Part shown: positions 10,529 to 40,554 of the stretch, piece by piece
How positions within the stretch are numbered: the first letter of the stretch is position 1
Layout: each line of letters begins with the position of its first letter
IMG/VR virus record: IMGVR_UViG_3300049489_001113
Span: 36,479-100,478 of that record
Reading direction: 5' to 3' (one strand)
DNA: 64,000 bases
DNA from: a virus
The notes under the pieces: model-generated
The model's database searches: none
Told to the model about the DNA's origin: nothing
Seen by the model: only the letters and a program-made list of their open reading frames with translations
Translations under genes and position numbers: made by a program

Positions 10529-10541
10529 GTGAATATTCACT
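10528..10541. promoter_or_regulatory. Perfect 14-bp palindromic operator
   Basis: AGTGAATATTCACT is a perfect inverted repeat touching the -35 box of the replication-operon promoter and overlapping the stop codon of the upstream gene. A half-site-like TATTCATG lies at 10504-10511 in the -10 region. The likely ligand is the adjacent winged-helix protein. Confidence 0.6.
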
Positions 10542-10986
10542 CGCTGAGCTGGTCAAGACCCCAGGCCGTCGCTCCTACCACTACGAGGACGGATGCGCCC
10601 CCGACGGTGCGCTGCACCCATGGTTGATCCCAGAACTTCACCTGTTGCGCCTCTTCGAGGCGGGCCGCGTACCAGTCCCGCTCGGCCTCGGCGATCCGGA
10701 CCTGTCCCTGCAGGTACACCGTGTCGAGGCGGTACCTGGCTTCCAGGGCGTCGGACCACGCCTCGTGCTGGAGTCCGTCGGCGACCGCCGAGAGGGGCAC
10801 GGCGACCGCCCCGCAGGCCACCTTGCCGCCGGACACCAGGACCGCCGGGACGGGCTCACCCACGTCGAGCCCGATCGCCTCGGCGCACTCTCCCTCGACC
10901 GGTGGGATCGGGGAGGGACGCTCGGGGAGCGGGGGGAGTGGCTCCGCACCGAGCGCCGGCAGGAGTAGGCCGAGCGCGAGGATCAC
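10537..10986 (-). CDS. Exported protein with C-terminal membrane segment
   Basis: Starts with a short hydrophobic signal-like segment (MILALGLLLPALGAEP), followed by a Pro-rich stretch, two Cys at about residues 34 and 58, a helical region (residues 70-118; RIAEAERDWYAARLEEAQQ could be coiled coil) and a C-terminal hydrophobic segment (GGASVLVVVGATAWGL). GTG start overlaps the upstream stop. With the membrane protein upstream it forms a two-gene membrane pair, and a lysis role (spanin or holin accessory) is possible. There is no lipobox, so it is not a typical outer spanin. Confidence 0.7.
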   Translation of the reverse strand: MILALGLLLPALGAEPLPPLPERPSPIPPVEGECAEAIGLDVGEPVPAVLVSGGKVACGAVAVPLSAVADGLQHEAWSDALEARYRLDTVYLQGQVRIAEAERDWYAARLEEAQQVKFWDQPWVQRTVGGASVLVVVGATAWGLDQLSE

Positions 10987-11252
10987 TTCCGCTTCCGGTT
11001 CAGGATGGCGGCGAGCGCGGAGCCCGGCTTCGACGCGGCGGCGGCGACCTTCACCTCCGCCTTCTCGTCCTCGAGCTTCGCGTCGACCTGCTTCGCCGCT
11101 TCGGCGTGCACCTCGGCGGCGACCGCCTTCGCGGTGTCGGTGGGTGGCGCGGGGGGCGTGACGACCTGTTTCCGCTTCCCGAGGAAACGGAGCAGGAGCG
11201 TCGCGGCCACCCCGAGCGCGGCCCCGAGGACCGCGATCAGGGGTGAGTCCAC
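10983..11252 (-). CDS. Small membrane protein with Ala-rich helix (89 aa)
   Basis: One N-terminal transmembrane segment (residues 4-22; IAVLGAALGVAATLLLRFL) followed by KRK, a Pro-rich turn and a long Ala/Lys/Glu helix ending in NRKRK. This topology is shared by inner spanins and some holin-like phage proteins. Start GTG lies directly after the upstream TAG. The four-base overlap with the downstream exported protein suggests the two act together. Lysis function is inferred from topology only. Confidence 0.7.
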   Translation of the reverse strand: MDSPLIAVLGAALGVAATLLLRFLGKRKQVVTPPAPPTDTAKAVAAEVHAEAAKQVDAKLEDEKAEVKVAAAASKPGSALAAILNRKRK

Positions 11253-11572
11253 TACGGGATGACCTTCATCACGTGGTACGCGACATCGGTGTCAGCGCCG
11301 GGGACGGCGTCGACCGAAATCGTGAGCAGGCCGGTTCCGTTCCACGAGTACCACAGCTTCGCCGCGGTGCCGGGGTTCTCGGCGAAGGTGAGCTGCACGA
11401 ACGCACCGTCCCACGCGGCGGGGAACTGCACGGTGGTCGAGGTGCCGGCCGCGAGGACGACGACGACACCGACCATGCCGATCGCGTCGGCGATGTCCTT
11501 GGCGGCGGTGCCCGCGGATCCGCCTGCGAGGACGGTGCGGGCCGGGATCTGACGGGCGGAGACTGCGGGCAT
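11252..11572 (-). CDS. Possible virion decoration or appendage protein (106 aa)
   Basis: ATG at 11572 with AGGAG eight bases upstream. Beta-rich, low-charge sequence (VVVVLAAGTSTTVQF, AFVQLTFAENPGTAAKLWYSWNG) typical of small beta-sandwich virion proteins. Similar in style to the 129-aa product next to the terminase (50192-50581). It ends the structural gene block on this side. No catalytic motif. Confidence 0.65.
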   Translation of the reverse strand: MPAVSARQIPARTVLAGGSAGTAAKDIADAIGMVGVVVVLAAGTSTTVQFPAAWDGAFVQLTFAENPGTAAKLWYSWNGTGLLTISVDAVPGADTDVAYHVMKVIP

Positions 11573-17365: not shown

Positions 17366-17725
17366 CTACTTCGTGGTGGTCGTATCCGTCGACGGCTCGG
17401 GTGTCGCGGGGGCAGGGGCTTTCGGGCAGTCGCACGTGGCAAGGCACGCGGGGAGGGGCACCGCGGTTGGGTCCGCGGCGTAGGCTTCCGCCGTCGGTGC
17501 GATCCAGTCGCGGGGCGGCAGACAGCCCTTCGCGACCGCCTCGGCCAGGACCTTCTGGTCCGCGACCATGCGCGCCAGGGCGGCCACCTTGTCGTGGAGT
17601 CCGGCCGCCATCTGGACCTGCGCGCTGTCCTGCCGCACCTCCTCGACTTCCTCGGGCGTGGCGCCCACGTCGGCGGGCTCCTCGGCGACAACGGATCGGG
17701 CGAACAGCAGAGAGAGCAGGACCAT
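17366..17725 (-). CDS. Small secreted protein with Pro/Thr-rich tail (119 aa)
   Basis: ATG at 17725 overlaps the stop of the membrane-coil protein upstream (TGATG). A signal-peptide-like start (MVLLSLLFARSVVAEEP) is followed by an acidic helical region, three Cys (near residues 70, 95 and 99, the last two as CDC) and a Pro/Thr tail. No lipobox. Paired with the upstream gene, it may form a lysis accessory pair; alternatively it is a periplasmic or extracellular factor. Confidence 0.65.
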   Translation of the reverse strand: MVLLSLLFARSVVAEEPADVGATPEEVEEVRQDSAQVQMAAGLHDKVAALARMVADQKVLAEAVAKGCLPPRDWIAPTAEAYAADPTAVPLPACLATCDCPKAPAPATPEPSTDTTTTK

Positions 17726-17919
17726 CACTTCAACCCCATGTCGGTCAGAGCTTTGTCGATGCCGTGTAGTTCGACCTGCACGAGGGCCAGCTCGAGGCGT
17801 AGGCGCTGCACCTCCTCGTGCTGCTGCCACCCCCAACCCGTGAGTGCCATGACGGCTGCGACGAGCCCGCCGATGACCCAGCGGGCAAAGCTCTCGGAGA
17901 TTACGGGATGTTCCGGCAT
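17725..17919 (-). CDS. Membrane protein with coiled-coil tail (64 aa)
   Basis: One transmembrane segment (residues 13-31; WVIGGLVAAVMALTGWGW) followed by a heptad-like helix (EVQRLRLELALVQVELHGIDKAL). This is the topology of small inner spanins or holin-associated proteins. The ATG is only five bases from the GTGATACTGTG motif, so a transcript from there would be leaderless. Confidence 0.65.
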   Translation of the reverse strand: MPEHPVISESFARWVIGGLVAAVMALTGWGWQQHEEVQRLRLELALVQVELHGIDKALTDMGLK

Positions 17920-17923
17920 GCCG

Positions 17924-18793
17924 TCACAGTATCACGGGGCGGTCGATGTCCTCACGCCCAGCCTGGGTCCGGCGGGCGATCGTCCGGGCACTGGCATCCA
18001 GCATGCCACCCAGGGACTTCGTCGGCGCCCAGACCCGCACCTTCTTCCCCGCGGCGGCGAGTTCCCGCAGGTCCTCGAGGTCCTCGAGTGCCGTGTTGTG
18101 CAACGCCACCTCGATCCCCCACAGCAGGTTCGACAGTGCACCACCCTCCGGGTCTGGCAGCGCGCCCTCATCGAGGACCTGACAGAACACCACGTCGATC
18201 TCCTTCACAGTGTGGAGCCATCGCTCCGGGATCGTTGGGATCACATGTTTGTGTCCGCCGTCGACGAGTGCCTCACTCCCAAGCCCGCACCGGATGGGTG
18301 CCATGATCCCGCACATGGCTGATGAAGCGAGGATGTGGTCATGCAGCTTCTGCACGGTATCCGAGTGTCTGCCGTGGATCGCGGTGATGTGCTTCCCCTC
18401 GTCGCGGATGACGATGCCGCACCCGTAGACACACCGGAACTGTGTGGGGTCCACATGTTTCTCAAGAAGCGCACGCACTGGTTCGATCGAGAATAGCCCC
18501 TCCGGTCGCTCGGCGAACGGGATGAGCGCCTTCCACCACAGGGGCTTCAGGAAACCGGGGATGCCGAGCCACGGGTCTTTCGTGTCGAGGTCATCCCAGA
18601 ACCCCTCGAGCACGTCGAACTTGTCCTGCGCCGCGAGCGAGAGGTTGATCGACCCGACCGAGGTGCCGAGCATAGCGTCGTAGGCACCACGCTCGGTGAG
18701 TGCGCGCAGGATCGGTACCTGGTAGGCGCCCTTGAACGCACCGCCGCTGGCAATGAGGAGACGTTGGACATGGGGCTCGGTGTCCTCGATCAT
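17924..18793 (-). CDS. Patatin-like phospholipase
   Basis: Serine-aspartate lipid acyl hydrolase of the patatin/RssA type. Residues 16-24 form the oxyanion-hole motif (SGGAFKGAYQ), the nucleophile elbow is GTSVGS near residue 44, and the dyad Asp is in VDGGHKH near residue 177. The length of 289 aa is normal and no signal peptide is visible. It lies inside the tail gene block, between small secreted or membrane genes and appendage genes, so it could be virion-borne or act on host membranes at lysis. ATG overlaps the previous stop. The catalytic motifs are intact. Confidence 0.9.
   Translation of the reverse strand: MIEDTEPHVQRLLIASGGAFKGAYQVPILRALTERGAYDAMLGTSVGSINLSLAAQDKFDVLEGFWDDLDTKDPWLGIPGFLKPLWWKALIPFAERPEGLFSIEPVRALLEKHVDPTQFRCVYGCGIVIRDEGKHITAIHGRHSDTVQKLHDHILASSAMCGIMAPIRCGLGSEALVDGGHKHVIPTIPERWLHTVKEIDVVFCQVLDEGALPDPEGGALSNLLWGIEVALHNTALEDLEDLRELAAAGKKVRVWAPTKSLGGMLDASARTIARRTQAGREDIDRPVIL
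17925..17935 (-). promoter_or_regulatory. GTGATACTGT motif, candidate late promoter element
   Basis: Minus-strand GTGATACTGTG five bases before the 64-aa membrane protein start. The same core occurs upstream of sheath, portal and two other genes in this window. GATACT could serve as a -10 box; no convincing -35 is visible. Confidence 0.4.
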
Positions 18794-33202: not shown

Positions 33203-35821
33203 TCACGTCACGCTCGAGGACATCTGGATGGCGAGTTCGGCCGCGATCTGGTCCGACACCATCCGTGCAAACTTCTGCGCCTCCGCCGGCGACAGCTCCG
33301 CGGCCTGGAACACCATCTGCCCGATGCTCACGGTGATGCCGCCCCCGGCCGCCCCCGCAGCCACCGCCGGTGAGCCCTGTGCCGTAGGCGCGGACGCCAC
33401 GACGGCGGACATGGCCGGGTTCCCCGGGCCAGGACCCACCGCGGTGGACAGAGCGCCCGCTGCCATCGCCCCAAAGGACGGGGCGAATGCGAGCATGCCC
33501 GCCGCGATGTTTCCGAGGATGGCCGCACCGGCGTTGCCGAGTCCGTAGAGCGGGCTCGAGGTGTCCTTCGGCTCCGAGCCGGGAAGGATGTCCTTCAGCT
33601 TCTGCAGGTGATCCGAGAACACATCGGTGAGGGTCGTGTCGGTGAAGGCGGCCACGATCATCTTTGGGATCATCCAGAAGCCGCTCTGCACGAATCGGAA
33701 GAAGTCGTAGACCATCTCGAACAGCTCGGCGAACACACGCCAGATCGTGGCTCCGACCGCAACGAAGGCCGCGCCGATGATGGCGAGCACCCGCCCCATG
33801 TCAACCAACCAACCTACGAGAGTGCCAAGGACCAACCCGAAGTCACGCCACGACTTCGATGCGCCCATGCTGGCCGCCGAGATGCCGAAGAACCCGAGGA
33901 CCATCTTCGCCGCGAGCTTGAGGTCAGCGATGATGAGTTTGAATGCTGGGCCCACGTTCTCGAGCGCCGGCATGAGCCCTTCCTTGAACCCCTCCCAGAG
34001 CTGCTGGAGTCGGTACTTCAGGTTCAGGATGGCGATGACGAACTTGCCGAGGAGGGGCGTCTGCTCGAAGAGCATCTTGCCCATCTTGAGGGGCACCTTC
34101 TCGCCGTTGAGGAACGCGAACAGCACCTTCACCGCGTTCGACACGAGCGCGAACTTCTCCGTCACCGAGTCCGCGAACCCGCCGATGTTGTAGCGCCACG
34201 CGACGAGGGCGGCGGTGGCGAACATGAGCAGCGGGATCATCAGGAGCAGGCCGACAAGCATGAACGGGAACACTTCGGCGGCGAACGTGCCGAGGATGAT
34301 CTGTAGGTTCACGAGGGCTGCGGAGAACAGGAAGGTGTTGGCCTCCGCGATGGCCATGGCCGCGTCGTAGATCGCGAGCACACCTGCGATGAACCCCACC
34401 GCGATGGCGGCAGTCCCGGCGGCGGTGGCCATGAGACCCATAGCGAGCGTGAGAGTGCCGACGGCGAAGGTCACCCCCAGGATCGCCACACGCACGAGAA
34501 TCGAATCGCGCGCTGCCACGGCCAGCCCCTTCGCGAAGCGAAGGACTACATCGAGCCCCTCCTTCAGAAGCGGCAGCACCGTCTCCCCGAGGACGACCTT
34601 GAAGCCCTCCCACACGTTGAAGAGCTGCTTCTTGATCCCTTCCCAGGTGTCCGCGAACTTCTGGGACATCTCCGCGGCCTGGTTCATCTTGTCGACGCCA
34701 GCATCGTCGATCTGCTTCCCGAGAGCCTCGAGCGCGTCGACGCCGCTCAGCACCTTCCCGTCGAAGTTCATGTTGCCCATGTTCTGGGCGAGCGCGAGCA
34801 GGCCACCGGCATTCTGCTTGAACACGGCGGACATCACGGAGCTGAAGTCGGCGGCGTTCATCCCCATCGCCTGCTGCCGCCGCGTCATGTCAGCCGTGAT
34901 CGACAGCACGTTCTTCCAGTTGCCCTGCGCGTCCTTCAGATCCTCCGGGCTCATACCAAGCTTCGCGAGGGCGCCCGTCTTCATGTCTGACTGGGAGATC
35001 TCCATGACCTCCTTGTTGAGGCCGGCGAAGCCGTTCGCGATGGAGGCGATCGAGTTGCCGACGTCCTTGTTCGTCTTGCCGGCGTTCTTGCCCGCCGCGG
35101 CGATGGCGAGCAGCGAACCCACGGTGGAGTTCTTCATCGTGACGCCGGTGGCGGCGATGCGCGCGAACAGTCCGTTGAGGTCCTCGAAGTTGAGGTTCGA
35201 CACCTGGGTCGCGACGGCGAGCTTGTCGAAGAACCCCGGGAGCTGGCTCTCCGTGAGACCGAGGGTCTTCCGCGCCATGACCGCCATGAGCGCGCCCTGC
35301 TCCGTGGTGAGCGTGCCCATCGACGCGCCGACGAAGTCGAGCGTTGGGATGAGGGCCTCGTTTGCCTCCTTCGCGGTGAAGCCGGCCTGCGCGAGCGAGA
35401 GGAGTGCCTCGGTCTTCTCCTGTGCGCTGAACAGCCCAGCCTTGTCGAAGTCGAGCGCGCTCTGGCGCAGCGCCTTCATCTCGTCGACGTTGCCCTCGGT
35501 GACCGCCGAGAGCTTGGCCATCCCCACCTCGAAGTTCCCAGCCGCCTCCACGCCGGTCCCCATCGTGGCGAGCATGCTCACCCCAAGACCGGTGAGGGAG
35601 CGCCCGGCGCGGCTCAATGCGGAACCGATGAGGCCCACCCCGATGCCGCCGAGCCGGCCCGTCCGGTAGCTCGCGGCGGCGAGCTGATTCTGCGAGCCGT
35701 TGAACTGCGCACCGAACATCTGCGCCTGCTTCGACAGCCCGCTGAAGAACTTCTGCGCGGCCGCTGTCGCCGGGCCGGTGACGACCTGGAACATCAGCGG
35801 GAAGACGGCGGGTGCAGCCAA
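33203..35821 (-). CDS. Tail tape measure protein
   Basis: 872 aa. Residues 1-380 are Gly/Ala-rich helices with phage tape-measure style segments (NFEVGMAKLSAVTEGNVDEMKALRQSA, MSPEDLKDAQGNWKNV), followed by several hydrophobic segments (450-560: AILGVTFAVGTLTLAMGLMA; FLFSAALVNLQIILGTF) and a Gly/Ala-rich C-terminus. Such proteins set tail length and are injected with DNA; the size would suit a tail of roughly 120-130 nm if the usual residue-to-length ratio holds. TTG start at 35821 is supported by AGGAG six bases upstream. It follows the frameshifted chaperone genes as expected. Confidence 0.92.
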   Translation of the reverse strand: MAAPAVFPLMFQVVTGPATAAAQKFFSGLSKQAQMFGAQFNGSQNQLAAASYRTGRLGGIGVGLIGSALSRAGRSLTGLGVSMLATMGTGVEAAGNFEVGMAKLSAVTEGNVDEMKALRQSALDFDKAGLFSAQEKTEALLSLAQAGFTAKEANEALIPTLDFVGASMGTLTTEQGALMAVMARKTLGLTESQLPGFFDKLAVATQVSNLNFEDLNGLFARIAATGVTMKNSTVGSLLAIAAAGKNAGKTNKDVGNSIASIANGFAGLNKEVMEISQSDMKTGALAKLGMSPEDLKDAQGNWKNVLSITADMTRRQQAMGMNAADFSSVMSAVFKQNAGGLLALAQNMGNMNFDGKVLSGVDALEALGKQIDDAGVDKMNQAAEMSQKFADTWEGIKKQLFNVWEGFKVVLGETVLPLLKEGLDVVLRFAKGLAVAARDSILVRVAILGVTFAVGTLTLAMGLMATAAGTAAIAVGFIAGVLAIYDAAMAIAEANTFLFSAALVNLQIILGTFAAEVFPFMLVGLLLMIPLLMFATAALVAWRYNIGGFADSVTEKFALVSNAVKVLFAFLNGEKVPLKMGKMLFEQTPLLGKFVIAILNLKYRLQQLWEGFKEGLMPALENVGPAFKLIIADLKLAAKMVLGFFGISAASMGASKSWRDFGLVLGTLVGWLVDMGRVLAIIGAAFVAVGATIWRVFAELFEMVYDFFRFVQSGFWMIPKMIVAAFTDTTLTDVFSDHLQKLKDILPGSEPKDTSSPLYGLGNAGAAILGNIAAGMLAFAPSFGAMAAGALSTAVGPGPGNPAMSAVVASAPTAQGSPAVAAGAAGGGITVSIGQMVFQAAELSPAEAQKFARMVSDQIAAELAIQMSSSVT

Positions 35822-35830
35822 CGCGATCTC

Positions 35831-36819
35831 CTACTTCTTCTTGATGGCCTGTTTCTCTTGCTCTACGAACTCGATCATACGATGCCAGTAGGACTTGCGC
35901 ATTCGCACCGTGAGGCGCACGACGTCGTCGGGGTGCCACTTCCACCGTTCCGCAAGCATCGACACCTCGTTGCGCACCATCCGCTGCCCCGCCGTCTCCC
36001 AGTCCACCTCGCCGAGTCCGGAACTCAGGGGGTCACCCTGCTCCATCACCGGGGCGAGGTACCCGAGAAAAAACCGGAGGCGTCCACCTGCACGCGCTCG
36101 TTCAGGCGCCCGCAGTCGGCGCACGTGAGGTCCGTCGCCATCTGCACACCGGGCATCTTCGAGTTCACGATCTCGCCGAGCCGCTGCCTGTCCATCGTGC
36201 GCATCTTGCGGAACGCGTCGGCGGTCGGCTTCACCCCATCCTCGAACCCCACGACGAGCGTGGACAACAGGGCGGTGGCGACGGTCTCCGGGCTCCGCGC
36301 GCTCACGTTGGCCAGTTGCTCCGCGTCGACCCCGCTGAGGAGCTTGAGCGTCCCCTTGTGGTGGACCTTGCCGTCGATGAGGAATCCCTTCTCGTCCTCG
36401 AAGGCGAACGTCGTCTCCCTGGAGTCGGGCCACTCCACGAAAGGAAGCTCAGAAAGCCGAATCTGGTCGGTGTTGTCCGTCTTGCAGTACCTGCACTGCC
36501 AGTCGCTTGATACCTCGTCGCCCATCGAGATCCGGCGGATGCTCAGGAGCAGGAAGTCGCGGTCCACCTGGTACATGGATCGCAGGTACTCGAGCGGCGC
36601 CAGAGCGTACCGGTCCGCCTTCTGCTCCATGAGCGCGGGGATCTCCTGGACGCACCGTTGCAGGAGCGCGGTGAGCCCGCGGACCGGCGCGTTCTTGTAC
36701 TTCGGGTTGGAGATGATCTCCTCGTCCACGCCGGACATCTCGTCGATCAGGACGTCGCGGAACACGCCGCCGTCCCTCCGGATGCCGACGGGAAGGCGGA
36801 TCGATTCGTACATGCTCAT
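35831..36819 (-). CDS. Tail assembly chaperone long form (gpG-T-like), made by -1 frameshift
   Basis: Ribosomes slipping one base back at TTTTTTC (36073-36067) would leave the short frame and continue LGYLAPVMEQ through WKWHPDDVVRLTVRMRK to the stop at 35831. The result is 251 plus 78 residues (329 aa). The extension alone has no start or ribosome site of its own, while its codons look protein-like and abut the tape measure gene. This is the arrangement of lambda G/GT and of equivalent chaperones in contractile-tailed phages, where the T part binds the tape measure. Confidence 0.85.
36046..36819 (-). CDS. Tail assembly chaperone short form (gpG-like)
   Basis: 257 aa from ATG 36819, chosen for the GGAGG six bases upstream. 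The protein resembles phage tail assembly chaperones with a zinc pair: WQCRYCKTD in the middle and LTCADCGRLNER near the end. The frame ends six codons after the slippery heptamer (SGTSPR stop). It lies directly before the tape measure. The CxxC pairs suggest a structural zinc site, like T4-type tail chaperones. Confidence 0.85.
   Translation of the reverse strand: MSMYESIRLPVGIRRDGGVFRDVLIDEMSGVDEEIISNPKYKNAPVRGLTALLQRCVQEIPALMEQKADRYALAPLEYLRSMYQVDRDFLLLSIRRISMGDEVSSDWQCRYCKTDNTDQIRLSELPFVEWPDSRETTFAFEDEKGFLIDGKVHHKGTLKLLSGVDAEQLANVSARSPETVATALLSTLVVGFEDGVKPTADAFRKMRTMDRQRLGEIVNSKMPGVQMATDLTCADCGRLNERVQVDASGFFSGTSPR
36067..36073 (-). promoter_or_regulatory. -1 ribosomal frameshift site TTTTTTC
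   Basis: Canonical X XXY YYZ heptamer in the zero frame (GGT TTT TTC). Slippage back one base joins the chaperone frame to the overlapping downstream frame, which then runs to the base before the tape measure. The zero-frame stop follows after seven codons. Confidence 0.85.
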
Positions 36820-36905: not shown

Positions 36906-37535
36906 TCAGTCGCAGGAGATGCCCCCGACGCCCCACCCAAGTTCGGTCACGGTCGGGTGCATCACCTCGCCCATCCTGTGCGCGACCACGCCGTCCACCA
37001 CCTTCGTCTCCGAATGGCCGAGTCCGATGGCGTGGCCGATCTCGTGGGCGAGCAGGAGCGCCTGCAGGTCCGGCCCTTGGGGCGCCACCATGGTCGCCCC
37101 TTCCGACGTGGGATCCACGATCTCGATCTGGGCCGGGACGCGCACCACCGGGCCCTGCGTGGGCGAGAGGAGGGTGTCCCCCGCATGTTCGGGGCTGGCC
37201 CAGAGGTCGCGCTCCACGATCGCGATGTGACCCGGCTTGCACGGTGCCGTCGTGCCGTCGATGGTGCAGGTGTCGATACAAGGACCGGTGCCCGCCGTCT
37301 CGACGTCGCACCCGTTGTCCGACCAGAACTTCGCGACGCGCGGCATCTCCACGGACACCCACGCCGGCGCGCCGTCGCAGATCCACACCTTGTGCACCGC
37401 GTCCACGGGGACGATGCCGTTCTCGGGTACCACGGGCTCCTGCGAGTGCAGGTAGATGAGCAGCCCGATCACCAGAGGGGTGAACACGAACAGGCCGAGG
37501 ACTCCGATGACGCCGAGCTTTTTGAGGAACTTCAC
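36906..37535 (-). CDS. Membrane-anchored metzincin-like zinc metalloprotease
   Basis: GTG start at 37535 with AGGAG five bases upstream. Residues 1-35 contain a short basic start and one transmembrane segment (LGVIGVLGLFVFTPLVIGLLIYL). The C-terminal part has LLLAHEIGHAIGLGHSE, the metzincin HExxHxxGxxH, and a later MHPT as Met-turn. Five Cys lie between residues 52 and 98. Predicted to sit in the membrane with its catalytic domain outside. It lies between tube and tail chaperone genes, an unusual place for a protease; processing of a tail component or attack on a host surface protein are both possible. Confidence 0.85.
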   Translation of the reverse strand: MKFLKKLGVIGVLGLFVFTPLVIGLLIYLHSQEPVVPENGIVPVDAVHKVWICDGAPAWVSVEMPRVAKFWSDNGCDVETAGTGPCIDTCTIDGTTAPCKPGHIAIVERDLWASPEHAGDTLLSPTQGPVVRVPAQIEIVDPTSEGATMVAPQGPDLQALLLAHEIGHAIGLGHSETKVVDGVVAHRMGEVMHPTVTELGWGVGGISCD

Positions 37536-37553
37536 GGGATCTCCTGAAACGGA

Positions 37554-37580
37554 ACAGCCCCCGACGGGATCGGGGGCTGT
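37554..37580 (-). terminator. Hairpin after the tail tube gene
   Basis: Perfect 11-bp stem (ACAGCCCCCGA / TCGGGGGCTGT) with a five-base loop, 20 bases after the tube stop codon and 19 before the metalloprotease start. A weak T stretch follows on the minus strand (TTCCGTTT). Likely a partial terminator or mRNA 3'-end stabiliser. Confidence 0.7.
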
Positions 37581-37599: not shown

Positions 37600-38097
37600 T
37601 CAGAGGGGCCCGGCGGTGACCAGCTTCTCGGCCAGGATGCCCTCGTTGGCAAGGGTCAGCTTCTCGATGAGGACCTCGTTCGAGGAGGCATCCAGGTCAC
37701 CGATCTCGAGTTCCGAGGGCCAGGCGCGCTGCACGGTCCACTTCCACACGTCGACGCCGCTCTTGTTCTTGAGGTAGATGACCACCTCGCGGCGGAAATC
37801 GGCAGTGCCTGCCCCGTCGGTCCCGGGGGGCTGCGCACCCTCGGTGTTGTCGAGCGAGAAGATCTGGTCACGCCAGCCGAGCAGGTCCGACCCGTCGGCG
37901 GCCATGCCGCGCTCGAGCACCACGTTCTCGAAGGTGGTCTGCCCGGGGAGCTTGCGGGGGGTCTCGTTCTCCCCGCCCTCCCGGTACTCGATGATCTCGG
38001 TCGTCTCTTTGAGTCCGGAAATCATCCGGAAGCCCATAGGAACGCCGTTGATCTCGACGCGGAACTTGAAGTTGCGGTATGGATCACGGATTGGCAT
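37600..38097 (-). CDS. Tail tube protein (T4 gp19-like)
   Basis: Inner tube protein of contractile tails. Family features: DPYRNFKFRVEINGVPMGFRMISGLKETTEIIEYREG at the N-terminus, NVVLERGMAADGSDLLGWRD, then VVIYLKNKSGVDVWKWTVQRAWPSELEIGDLDASSNEVLIEKLTLANEG. 165 aa is typical. It follows the sheath gene by 13 bases and ends before a strong hairpin, which fits high expression. Confidence 0.94.
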   Translation of the reverse strand: MPIRDPYRNFKFRVEINGVPMGFRMISGLKETTEIIEYREGGENETPRKLPGQTTFENVVLERGMAADGSDLLGWRDQIFSLDNTEGAQPPGTDGAGTADFRREVVIYLKNKSGVDVWKWTVQRAWPSELEIGDLDASSNEVLIEKLTLANEGILAEKLVTAGPL

Positions 38098-38109: not shown

Positions 38110-40554
38110 TCACTCGGTCACGGTCGTGGAGCCATCGTACTGCGAGAACCGGAAGATCAGGAACTCGGCGGGGCGCTGAGGTGCGATGCCGATCTCCCCG
38201 ATCAACCGTCCGGCCAGGACGTCGGCGGGCGTGGTGGTGGTCTCGTCGATCTTCACGAAGTAGCTCTGGGCTGGGGTGGCGCCGGGGAAGGCGCGCTGCT
38301 CCCAGAGCCCGCGAAGGAACTTCGAGATGAGGTCGGTGAGCTTCTGCCAGAGGCGGAAGTCGTTGTTGCGGAACACGTAGGCCCGCGTGCTCTTGGCCAC
38401 CGACTGCTCCACGAAGGTGAAGAGGCGGCGGACGGAGATGTACTGCCAGTTCGGGTCGTTCGAGAGCGTGCGGCCGCCGTGGACGACGATCCCCTGGCCG
38501 TTGAACTTGCGGAGGCAGTTCACGCCGATGGGGTTGAGCACGTCCTGGTCGGAGTCGCGCACCTGCGCCTCGAGGGCGAGGGCACCGCGGATCTTGCCCT
38601 GGTCCCCGAACCCGGCAGGGGTGTTCCACACGCCGCCGTCGGGCGGGGTGAGGTTGTCCACCCGGGCGTAGATGCCGAGGATGTGACCGACGGGGTCGAC
38701 CGTGATCTGCGGGTTCGAGCCGGCGCCGACGGGGTCGGTGACCGTGATGCGGGGCCAGTACAGCGCCGCGTGCGAGGTGTTGAAACCGCCGGTGATCTGG
38801 CGGTAGGTCTCGATCTGTTCCCGCGTCCGTCCCGCCTGGGGTCCGACCACGTAGAACAGGTCCTTGCGGGCCTCGACGTAGTCGATGACCTGCTGGACCA
38901 TCGCGGCGGCGTAGTAGCCGGGGATGGCGAGCAGCGAGATGTCGTCGAGGTCGTCGAAGAGGTGCACACCGGTGTGTCCGGCCTCGCTCCCGACGATGTC
39001 GGCGGTCACGATGCCGGTGCTCTCGTCCGTGCCGCCGGACAGTGGGTACGTACCGGCCTGCGGCGTGTCCGCACCCTCGCCAAGGAGGGCGTTCTCGTCG
39101 ACCACCCGGATGATGAGCGAGCCGGTCGCGTCGTCGTTGATGACGGTCTCGACGTAGTTGTCGACGGTGTCGAGCATGGACACCTGCGACCACACCTCGA
39201 GCAGCGCGCCGAGCTTGTAGACCTGCACGTCGAACTCGAGGCTTTTCACCGTCGTGGCACCCACGAGGTAGCCGTTCGTGATGGCCGTGGTGGTCGTCAC
39301 GACGTGCTTGATGGCCGCACCCACGACCACCTTGGCGATCGACTGGATGATCTTGTGCTCGGTGTTCACGCCGTCGGTGATCCGGAGGATCATGCCGGCG
39401 GTGAGCCCGTCGCCGTGCGCCAGCTCGATCGTGCTCGAGGCGGCGACCACCGCGCTGTAGAGGTCGAGCCCCACACCCAAGGAGGCGAACAAGGGGTTGT
39501 CCACCAGGGTGACGGAGAGGTCGTTGCCCCATTCGCCGGGGTTCGCCGCGAGCACCGTGAGGGCGTGCTGCGTGGCGGAGGCGGCGCCGGTGGTGACGCC
39601 GACGGTCAGCCCGAAGGCAGTGAGGAGACCGGCGGACGAGGCCACCTTGATGTCGATCTCGCTCGCGGGACCGGTGGTCGGGCTCGTGAGAACGATGAAG
39701 CCGCCGCTGCTCTGCGTCACGACGAGGCCGGTGATGGCCGCCGTGACGACCGTGTCCACCTCGGCGAAGGTCACCGCGTCGATGTTCGACACGTTGCCGG
39801 CGCCCGACGTGCTGCCGATGGCGAGCCCGATGGTGGCCCGGCCGGTGCCGCCAATGATGTTCACCGAGGAGCCGGTGCCGCGCCGGTCGGAGCGGATGCG
39901 GACCTCCCCGCCGGACACCTCGGCCTGCGCGCCGACGATCTGCGCGTTGATCTCCGCGACGACGTCGGCCGCGAGAGAGGCGGCTGCGGTGAAGATGATG
40001 GTCTGCGTGGCCCCGCCGTCGATGGCGAGGGTGAGCGTCTCACCGCCGGCGAACAGGGTGGGGAAGGTACCCGCCACGCCAGTGCGCGCACCGGCGGTCG
40101 CCGTGAAGGTGGCGATCAGCACACCGCCGTTGTTCAGGTCGATGTTGAGGGTCCAGCCCGGCTCGAGGTCGTATGTCGGGAGCGCGGTGCCGATGACCTG
40201 CGCGGGGCTCGCGTCACCGAGATCGCTCTCGATGTCGGTCCCGGTGTTCGCGGTGGCACCGACGATCGTGAGGGGATCGTCCGGGTCGGTGTAGTGCGCA
40301 AGGCGACCGACGTAGCACTGCGTGCCGCCGTTGATGAAGAAGCCCTGCACGGCGTAGGCGAGTTCGCTCCGGTCAGGGTCGAAGTCGCCGAACCGGCGCT
40401 TGAACTCCTCGAAGGAGGTGCACTTGACCGGCTCGTCGACCGGCCCCATGAGCGCCACACCGAGGAAAGCTGCCACGGCCGTACCCGCTGCCTGGATCGG
40501 CGCGGTGCCCTGGACTTCCTCGATGTAGACACCCGGGTGAAGGTAGGAAGGCAT
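38110..40554 (-). CDS. Tail sheath protein
   Basis: Contractile sheath subunit. The N-terminus PSYLHPGVYIEEVQGTAPIQAAGTAVAAFLG, then EEFKRRFGD and FFINGGTQCYVGRL, and the C-terminus (KFNGQGIVVHGGRTL, YISVRRLFTFVEQSV, FRNNDFRLWQKL) are diagnostic for the phage sheath family. Residues 110-520 hold extra beta domains, including a TFPTLFAGGETLTLAIDGGAT module; at 814 aa it is larger than T4 gp18 (659 aa). These inserts are probably exposed on the sheath surface. Confidence 0.95.
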   Translation of the reverse strand: MPSYLHPGVYIEEVQGTAPIQAAGTAVAAFLGVALMGPVDEPVKCTSFEEFKRRFGDFDPDRSELAYAVQGFFINGGTQCYVGRLAHYTDPDDPLTIVGATANTGTDIESDLGDASPAQVIGTALPTYDLEPGWTLNIDLNNGGVLIATFTATAGARTGVAGTFPTLFAGGETLTLAIDGGATQTIIFTAAASLAADVVAEINAQIVGAQAEVSGGEVRIRSDRRGTGSSVNIIGGTGRATIGLAIGSTSGAGNVSNIDAVTFAEVDTVVTAAITGLVVTQSSGGFIVLTSPTTGPASEIDIKVASSAGLLTAFGLTVGVTTGAASATQHALTVLAANPGEWGNDLSVTLVDNPLFASLGVGLDLYSAVVAASSTIELAHGDGLTAGMILRITDGVNTEHKIIQSIAKVVVGAAIKHVVTTTTAITNGYLVGATTVKSLEFDVQVYKLGALLEVWSQVSMLDTVDNYVETVINDDATGSLIIRVVDENALLGEGADTPQAGTYPLSGGTDESTGIVTADIVGSEAGHTGVHLFDDLDDISLLAIPGYYAAAMVQQVIDYVEARKDLFYVVGPQAGRTREQIETYRQITGGFNTSHAALYWPRITVTDPVGAGSNPQITVDPVGHILGIYARVDNLTPPDGGVWNTPAGFGDQGKIRGALALEAQVRDSDQDVLNPIGVNCLRKFNGQGIVVHGGRTLSNDPNWQYISVRRLFTFVEQSVAKSTRAYVFRNNDFRLWQKLTDLISKFLRGLWEQRAFPGATPAQSYFVKIDETTTTPADVLAGRLIGEIGIAPQRPAEFLIFRFSQYDGSTTVTE

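Follow-up and report, generated by a model that had tools for sequence, protein, structure and literature searches.

Holins, lysins, spanins, and polysaccharide-degrading enzymes are the usual explanation of how phages leave and enter cells. The cleavage of host envelope proteins by phage proteases has, to our knowledge, been little studied. In the literature searched, a single experimentally studied phage-derived metzincin was found, namely Mtz (LMRG_00713) of Listeria (PMC8235301). Mtz is exported and belongs to the mtz-tim gene pair, which is located in prophages downstream of the holin and lysin genes (PMC8235301). When catalytically active Mtz was co-expressed with Tim, phage-mediated lysis and virion release rose about 5-fold, and active Mtz together with Tim also raised sensitivity to phage lysis (PMC8235301).

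A gene for a metzincin-like protein was found in the DNA analyzed here, a stretch of 64,000 nucleotides (the window) corresponding to positions 36479–100478 of a 100,478-base virus record (IMGVR_UViG_3300049489_001113). This gene (36906..37535, minus strand) encodes a membrane-anchored protein of 209 amino acids, has a GTG start, and is preceded by a likely ribosome-binding site, AGGAGA (37540..37545, minus strand). The ORF is intact, and the zinc ligands and the Glu of the catalytic motif are all present. The zinc-binding motif HEIGHAIGLGH occupies residues 164–174 (37014..37046, minus strand) and coincides with a partial match to PF00413 (E 2.9e-4). The pattern HExxHxxGxxH was found once in the six frames of the window, whereas 100 simulated first-order Markov sequences contained it 0.02 times on average and at most once; a chance origin of the motif was therefore rejected. 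A putative Met-turn, M192-H-P (36954..36962, minus strand), is part of the tetrapeptide VMHP (residues 191–194), and a second Met is located at position 188. As read from the sequence, these Met residues lie 18 (M192) and 14 (M188) residues past the third His. M192 was aligned with the Met of other metzincins in an alignment (A1) that also includes a likely helix A with the conserved Trp (W71). A His-to-Met link of 18 residues is long for a matrixin. An earlier sequence-only reading of this DNA had claimed the full metzincin signature; HEIGHAIGLGH and a plausible Met-turn bear this out, but the long link and a PF00413 match below the cut-off do not.

The match to the matrixin family PF00413 scored 21.2 bits against a cut-off of 24 and covered only the 27 residues 152–178. 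No PHROG family was found for the protein. Searches of IMG/VR, phages, plasmids, and GTDB species genomes revealed no homologue beyond the active site, and thus these searches tell nothing about a conserved use of the protein. No relative was found in IMG/VR with alignment A1; among the matches listed in the A1 search were two Bacteriovoracaceae loci, with similarity at the level of the motif only. Two IMG/VR metzincins (L057 and L035), searched against phages by tblastn, also had no match. A profile built from the protein and seven other phage metzincins had matrix metalloproteinases (MMPs) as its top matches in PDB (E 1.2e-6), much of this signal being supplied by the seven other sequences. 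When the protein alone was aligned with these seven by hhalign, only the motif region (residues 151–177) was matched, with a probability of 96%.

The single-sequence AF2 model was poor outside the N-terminal anchor. In a family-guided AF2 model built with 26 sequences (pLDDT 68, pTM 0.55), strands and helices are arranged along the chain in a manner compatible with a metzincin, although the alignment behind the model was made of metzincins selected by motif and the resulting fold is not independent of that choice. In the VIA-align comparison of the guided model, all 50 of the 50 listed rows were metzincins, with Z of 4.9–5.5, and values below 8 may reflect merely a common arrangement of elements. 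Foldseek gave no match for this model at E ≤ 0.001, and its top rows in PDB and BFVD were unrelated. The proposed likeness to matrixins thus received a metzincin-like fold from the guided model but no significant Foldseek match. Because the Pfam match is below the cut-off, the alignment is confined to the motif, and the sequences behind the model were chosen by motif, we call the protein metzincin-like with an intact active-site motif and do not file it as a member of family M10.

The transmembrane start noticed in the sequence-only reading was confirmed as a hydrophobic segment at residues 9–27 (37455..37511, minus strand; mean Kyte-Doolittle hydropathy 2.71). A helix at residues 2–30 was predicted with high confidence without any alignment (block pLDDT 82–94) and was the sole long confident part of the single-sequence AF2 model. 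Three lysines precede the segment. By the positive-inside rule, lysines ahead of an anchor predict an N-in/C-out orientation, which is therefore predicted here. The anchor is probably uncleaved. The protein contains six cysteines (residues 53, 76, 86, 90, 99, and 208), or 2.88 per 100 amino acids, versus 0–1.95 in the listed sheath, tube, tape-measure, and baseplate genes. The cysteine count by itself proves nothing, since a gene for an MT-A70 methyltransferase in the window has as many cysteines per residue. Taken together, the anchor and the six cysteines suggest a catalytic domain outside the cytoplasm.

The gene is located inside a contractile-tail cluster with the order sheath, tube, metzincin-like gene, T4-baseplate-like gene, tape measure, CIS_tube, GPD-like gene, and base_V. 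The upstream neighbor encodes a tail tube protein (37600..38097, minus strand; PF06841, E 3.1e-36). The downstream neighbor encodes a T4-baseplate-like or baseplate-hub-like protein (36046..36819, minus strand; PF12322, E 3.5e-8; PHROG 'baseplate hub'), with its start fixed by a Shine-Dalgarno site and by comparison with relatives. The tail sheath (38110..40554, minus strand) and the tape measure protein (33203..35821, minus strand) were assigned from Pfam and PHROG matches. The gene had been placed between tube and tail chaperone genes; the tube gene was verified, but the downstream gene is baseplate-like and a chaperone was not shown.

In the window, the interval between the tube and baseplate genes spans 780 nt, comprising 64 nt with a stem-loop, the metzincin-like gene, and 86 nt. 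The stem-loop, also noticed earlier, has perfect 11-bp arms and a 5-nt loop and lies between the tube stop and the start of the metzincin-like gene (37554..37580, minus strand). Among perfect inverted repeats with short loops, it is the longest of the window and one of only two with arms of at least 9 bp. According to the sequence-only reading, the hairpin would imply lower expression of the gene. It was absent from the output of the terminator scan, lacking a U-run such as that scan requires, and its reading as a Rho-independent terminator was not supported; high-GC terminators can be without U-runs. A scan for sigma-70-type sites found none near the gene.

For comparison with relatives, scans of IMG/VR for the tube protein gave 38 distinct contigs, 25 from the first scan and 13 more from the second. 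Both flanking genes could be read in 33 of them; the other five (L174, L178, L179, L180, and L182), with a truncated tube or no baseplate match, were dropped from the gap count. The tube-baseplate gap had no room for a gene in 32 of the 33 contigs: the best match to the baseplate protein begins 62–156 nt past the tube stop, and an in-frame start lies closer still. In the 33rd contig (L181) this gap is filled; a second insertion at the same site was considered but rejected, because the filler proved to be another tube gene. Thus, this contig of a contractile-tailed phage (L181:3470–4540) carries a tandem pair of divergent tail tube genes. The HExxHxxGxxH motif was found in none of the 38 tube-bearing contigs, in the stretch read around the tube, which agrees with the earlier remark that proteases are unusual here. 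No PF00413 match at E ≤ 1 was found in 25 whole relative records, mostly fragments.

The closest isolates, phages of Streptomyces and Bacteroides, are all distant. The Streptomyces phage BRock group is closest by terminase (34–35%) and portal (29–31%), and this group together with Bacteroides phage BS162P1 is closest by capsid (39–42%). Tube and baseplate-like genes are adjacent in Streptomyces phages GiJojo and BRock, and the BRock group, unlike the phage studied here, has no protease between them. In phage BS162P1, neither the tube nor the baseplate protein was matched at E ≤ 1, which made this phage unusable for the gap. The gaps of relatives also lack a comparably stable fold: predicted energies ranged from −1.2 to −14.1 kcal/mol in 21 of 24 loci (33–85 nt), the remaining three having no resolvable start until the 38-contig comparison, versus −28.8 kcal/mol for the 64 nt of the window. 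Since the tube and baseplate genes are neighbors in relatives and no such fold is found between them, the metzincin-like gene together with the hairpin represents an insertion, and since these relatives have no gene at the site, the gene is dispensable for this tail type.

The inserted gene has a GC3 of 0.91 and a codon log-likelihood of −0.759, both inside the range of 30 other genes, and in codon usage it matches the structural genes of the phage. As codon usage is native, a recent foreign import is not supported, and the gene appears to be old or ameliorated. Of the features of a moron (an accessory phage gene), insertion between genes that are adjacent in relatives was found and foreign base composition was not. 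Closer relatives that carry the gene may exist beyond the contigs compared. The gene is thus an orphan encoding an anchored metzincin-like protein, inserted in a conserved tail operon.

Most likely, the protein targets the envelope of the infected host cell and takes no part in building the tail. As the best explanation, to which we give an about even chance on the strength of sequence features and of analogy, we propose a late, accessory, envelope-facing metzincin that clips or weakens host envelope proteins at lysis or release. An accessory gene inserted in a late tail operon would encode a zinc metalloprotease of metzincin type, signal-anchored with N-in/C-out topology. The protein would be synthesized late, together with the tail proteins, and inserted into the inner membrane via Sec, so that a disulfide-stabilized catalytic domain would face the periplasm or the outside of the cell. 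In this location, it would cleave host envelope proteins and, as the first choice, help lysis and progeny release; as a second choice, it might destroy surface proteins that would re-adsorb virions. Late expression is argued from the location of the gene on the same strand as the tail genes, between tube and baseplate. Export is consistent with a survey of IMG/VR, where an N-terminal hydrophobic segment was found in 41 of 89 ORFs with HE[IL]GHxxGLGH and in 62 of 700 other ORFs of the same loci. From this survey, 23 of 112 loci were dropped for having no listed motif-bearing ORF of at least 100 amino acids. Under a simple hydrophobicity rule and with redundant rows (49 clusters at 35% identity), phage metzincins in IMG/VR appear to be often exported. 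The missing homologues, the Pfam score below the cut-off, and the lack of a significant Foldseek match count against the proposal, and so do two differences from Listeria mtz-tim. The gene is located about 26 kb from small membrane-protein-like genes (10537–11572) that had no family match and are possible lysis genes, and neither of its neighbors, the tube and PF12322 genes, is a TIMP-like partner.

Another possible envelope-attacking enzyme of this phage is a patatin-like phospholipase (17924–18793, minus strand; PF01734, E 7.8e-15). Next to its gene lies another whose small product includes a hydrophobic segment (17725–17919, minus strand).

Cleavage of a host surface protein at entry or release was among the roles suggested earlier. 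Release is the best-supported option and has a precedent in Mtz, while for entry only analogues with fused virion domains were found. For a role at entry, the protease would have to be carried by the virion, inside its tail or on it, and be brought to the host envelope, where the hydrophobic segment would enter the membrane and the catalytic domain would clip a receptor or another envelope protein. The location of the gene between tube and baseplate-like genes fits this rather unlikely alternative, and matrixin domains in two IMG/VR virion proteins give the entry idea real analogues. The first is a tape measure of 2399 amino acids (L044:1572–8771, IMGVR_UViG_3300000367_000015), with a PF00413 match at residues 1604–1642, a PhageMin_Tail match (E 7.4e-22), and tape measures as 9 of the 10 listed PHROGs. 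The second is a collagen-like tail-fibre protein (L043:7197–9701, IMGVR_UViG_3300045738_001392) with a matrixin domain (PF00413, E 2.6e-19). However, these domains are fused, whereas the protein studied here is stand-alone, signal-anchor-like, and cysteine-rich, and relatives that share this tail lack it at the site. Further on in the L044 tape measure, a peptidoglycan-peptidase-like stretch, HSMGRAVDIVG...HWDHVHW, was noticed by eye.

It is also improbable that the anchored protease modifies the host surface for superinfection exclusion, removing the receptor used by the phage itself or by its rivals. Such a role would suit an inserted accessory gene whose product is probably located in the envelope, and surface proteins by which phages keep out others, Ltp and SieA, are known. 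Nevertheless, a gene of a late operon would act late for excluding phages, and a search for tyrosine-type integrases gave no match in the 100-kb record, which makes lysogenic expression unlikely on present evidence.

Processing of a tail protein, be it the tape measure (as the sequence-only reading had also proposed) or a different one, is very improbable and is favored only by location in the tail cluster, since relatives with homologous sheath, tube, and tape-measure genes have no metzincin at the site and the anchor and cysteines point to the wrong side of the membrane, cytoplasmic cleavage of the tape measure being the weakest idea. Equally hard to credit is metzincin-derived cargo that is catalytically dead or decaying, with no present protease role: the unusually long third-His-to-Met link, the lack of detectable homologues, and a single sequence that allows no test of selection would agree with it, but the intact ORF, the complete ligands and Glu, and the structural-gene-like codon usage speak against it.

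The release role might be one instance of a broader pattern, in which metzincins are a general, unrecognized phage tool for cutting host envelope proteins, either exported late or built into virion parts; we put this forward tentatively, as a somewhat doubtful generalization. If it is true, the gene described here would encode a sheddase bound to the membrane that acts in lysis or in the detachment of virions, and the L044 and L043 domains would serve entry. The readable relatives provide a natural 'empty site', their conserved tail operon differing by this one gene, which makes the role proposed for the gene testable.

Several exported metzincins of IMG/VR phages (L130, L123, L048, L031, L077, and L119) are also small proteins with hydrophobic or lipobox-like starts, L123 being lipoprotein-like. 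One adjoins a tail-spike gene (L119), and another (L048) is encoded some 4 kb upstream of the gene for a tape measure. All six resemble the protein studied here in the motif region only and belong to other phages and other sites. The small lipobox-like metzincins L031:8504–9037 and L077:3743–4285 are on the strand opposite to their neighbors, like independently expressed cargo. A cluster of 14 IMG/VR metzincins was also found (L035, L045, L066, L069, L116, L117, L122, L125, L132, L133, L138, L139, L141, and L143), many of them with a hydrophobic N-terminus. The one member scanned, L035, matched archaemetzincin (PF07998, E 1.6e-9); in the literature found on archaemetzincin and phage, nothing was evidently about phage genes. 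On another contig, outside the window, the start of an ORF (L106:1183–2010) resembles by eye an intein C-terminus (...GVWHHN|TGKS) within the P-loop of an ATPase.

With peptidase family M10 (PF00413), the protein shares HEIGHAIGLGH and a downstream Met; it differs in the longer link from His to Met, the six cysteines, and the N-terminal anchor. With Listeria Mtz, it has in common the association with a phage, HEXXHXXGXXH, and the accessory nature of the gene; a Met-turn and export, both features of Mtz, are predicted here. Mtz has a predicted Sec/SPI signal, whereas the protein described here has a probable uncleaved anchor. Mtz also has a TIMP-like lipoprotein partner and is encoded near holin and lysin genes, whereas no adjacent partner was found here and the gene is located between tail genes. 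Thus, an accessory exported metzincin of phages is known from one studied case, and the anchor, the insertion site, and the missing partner are new.
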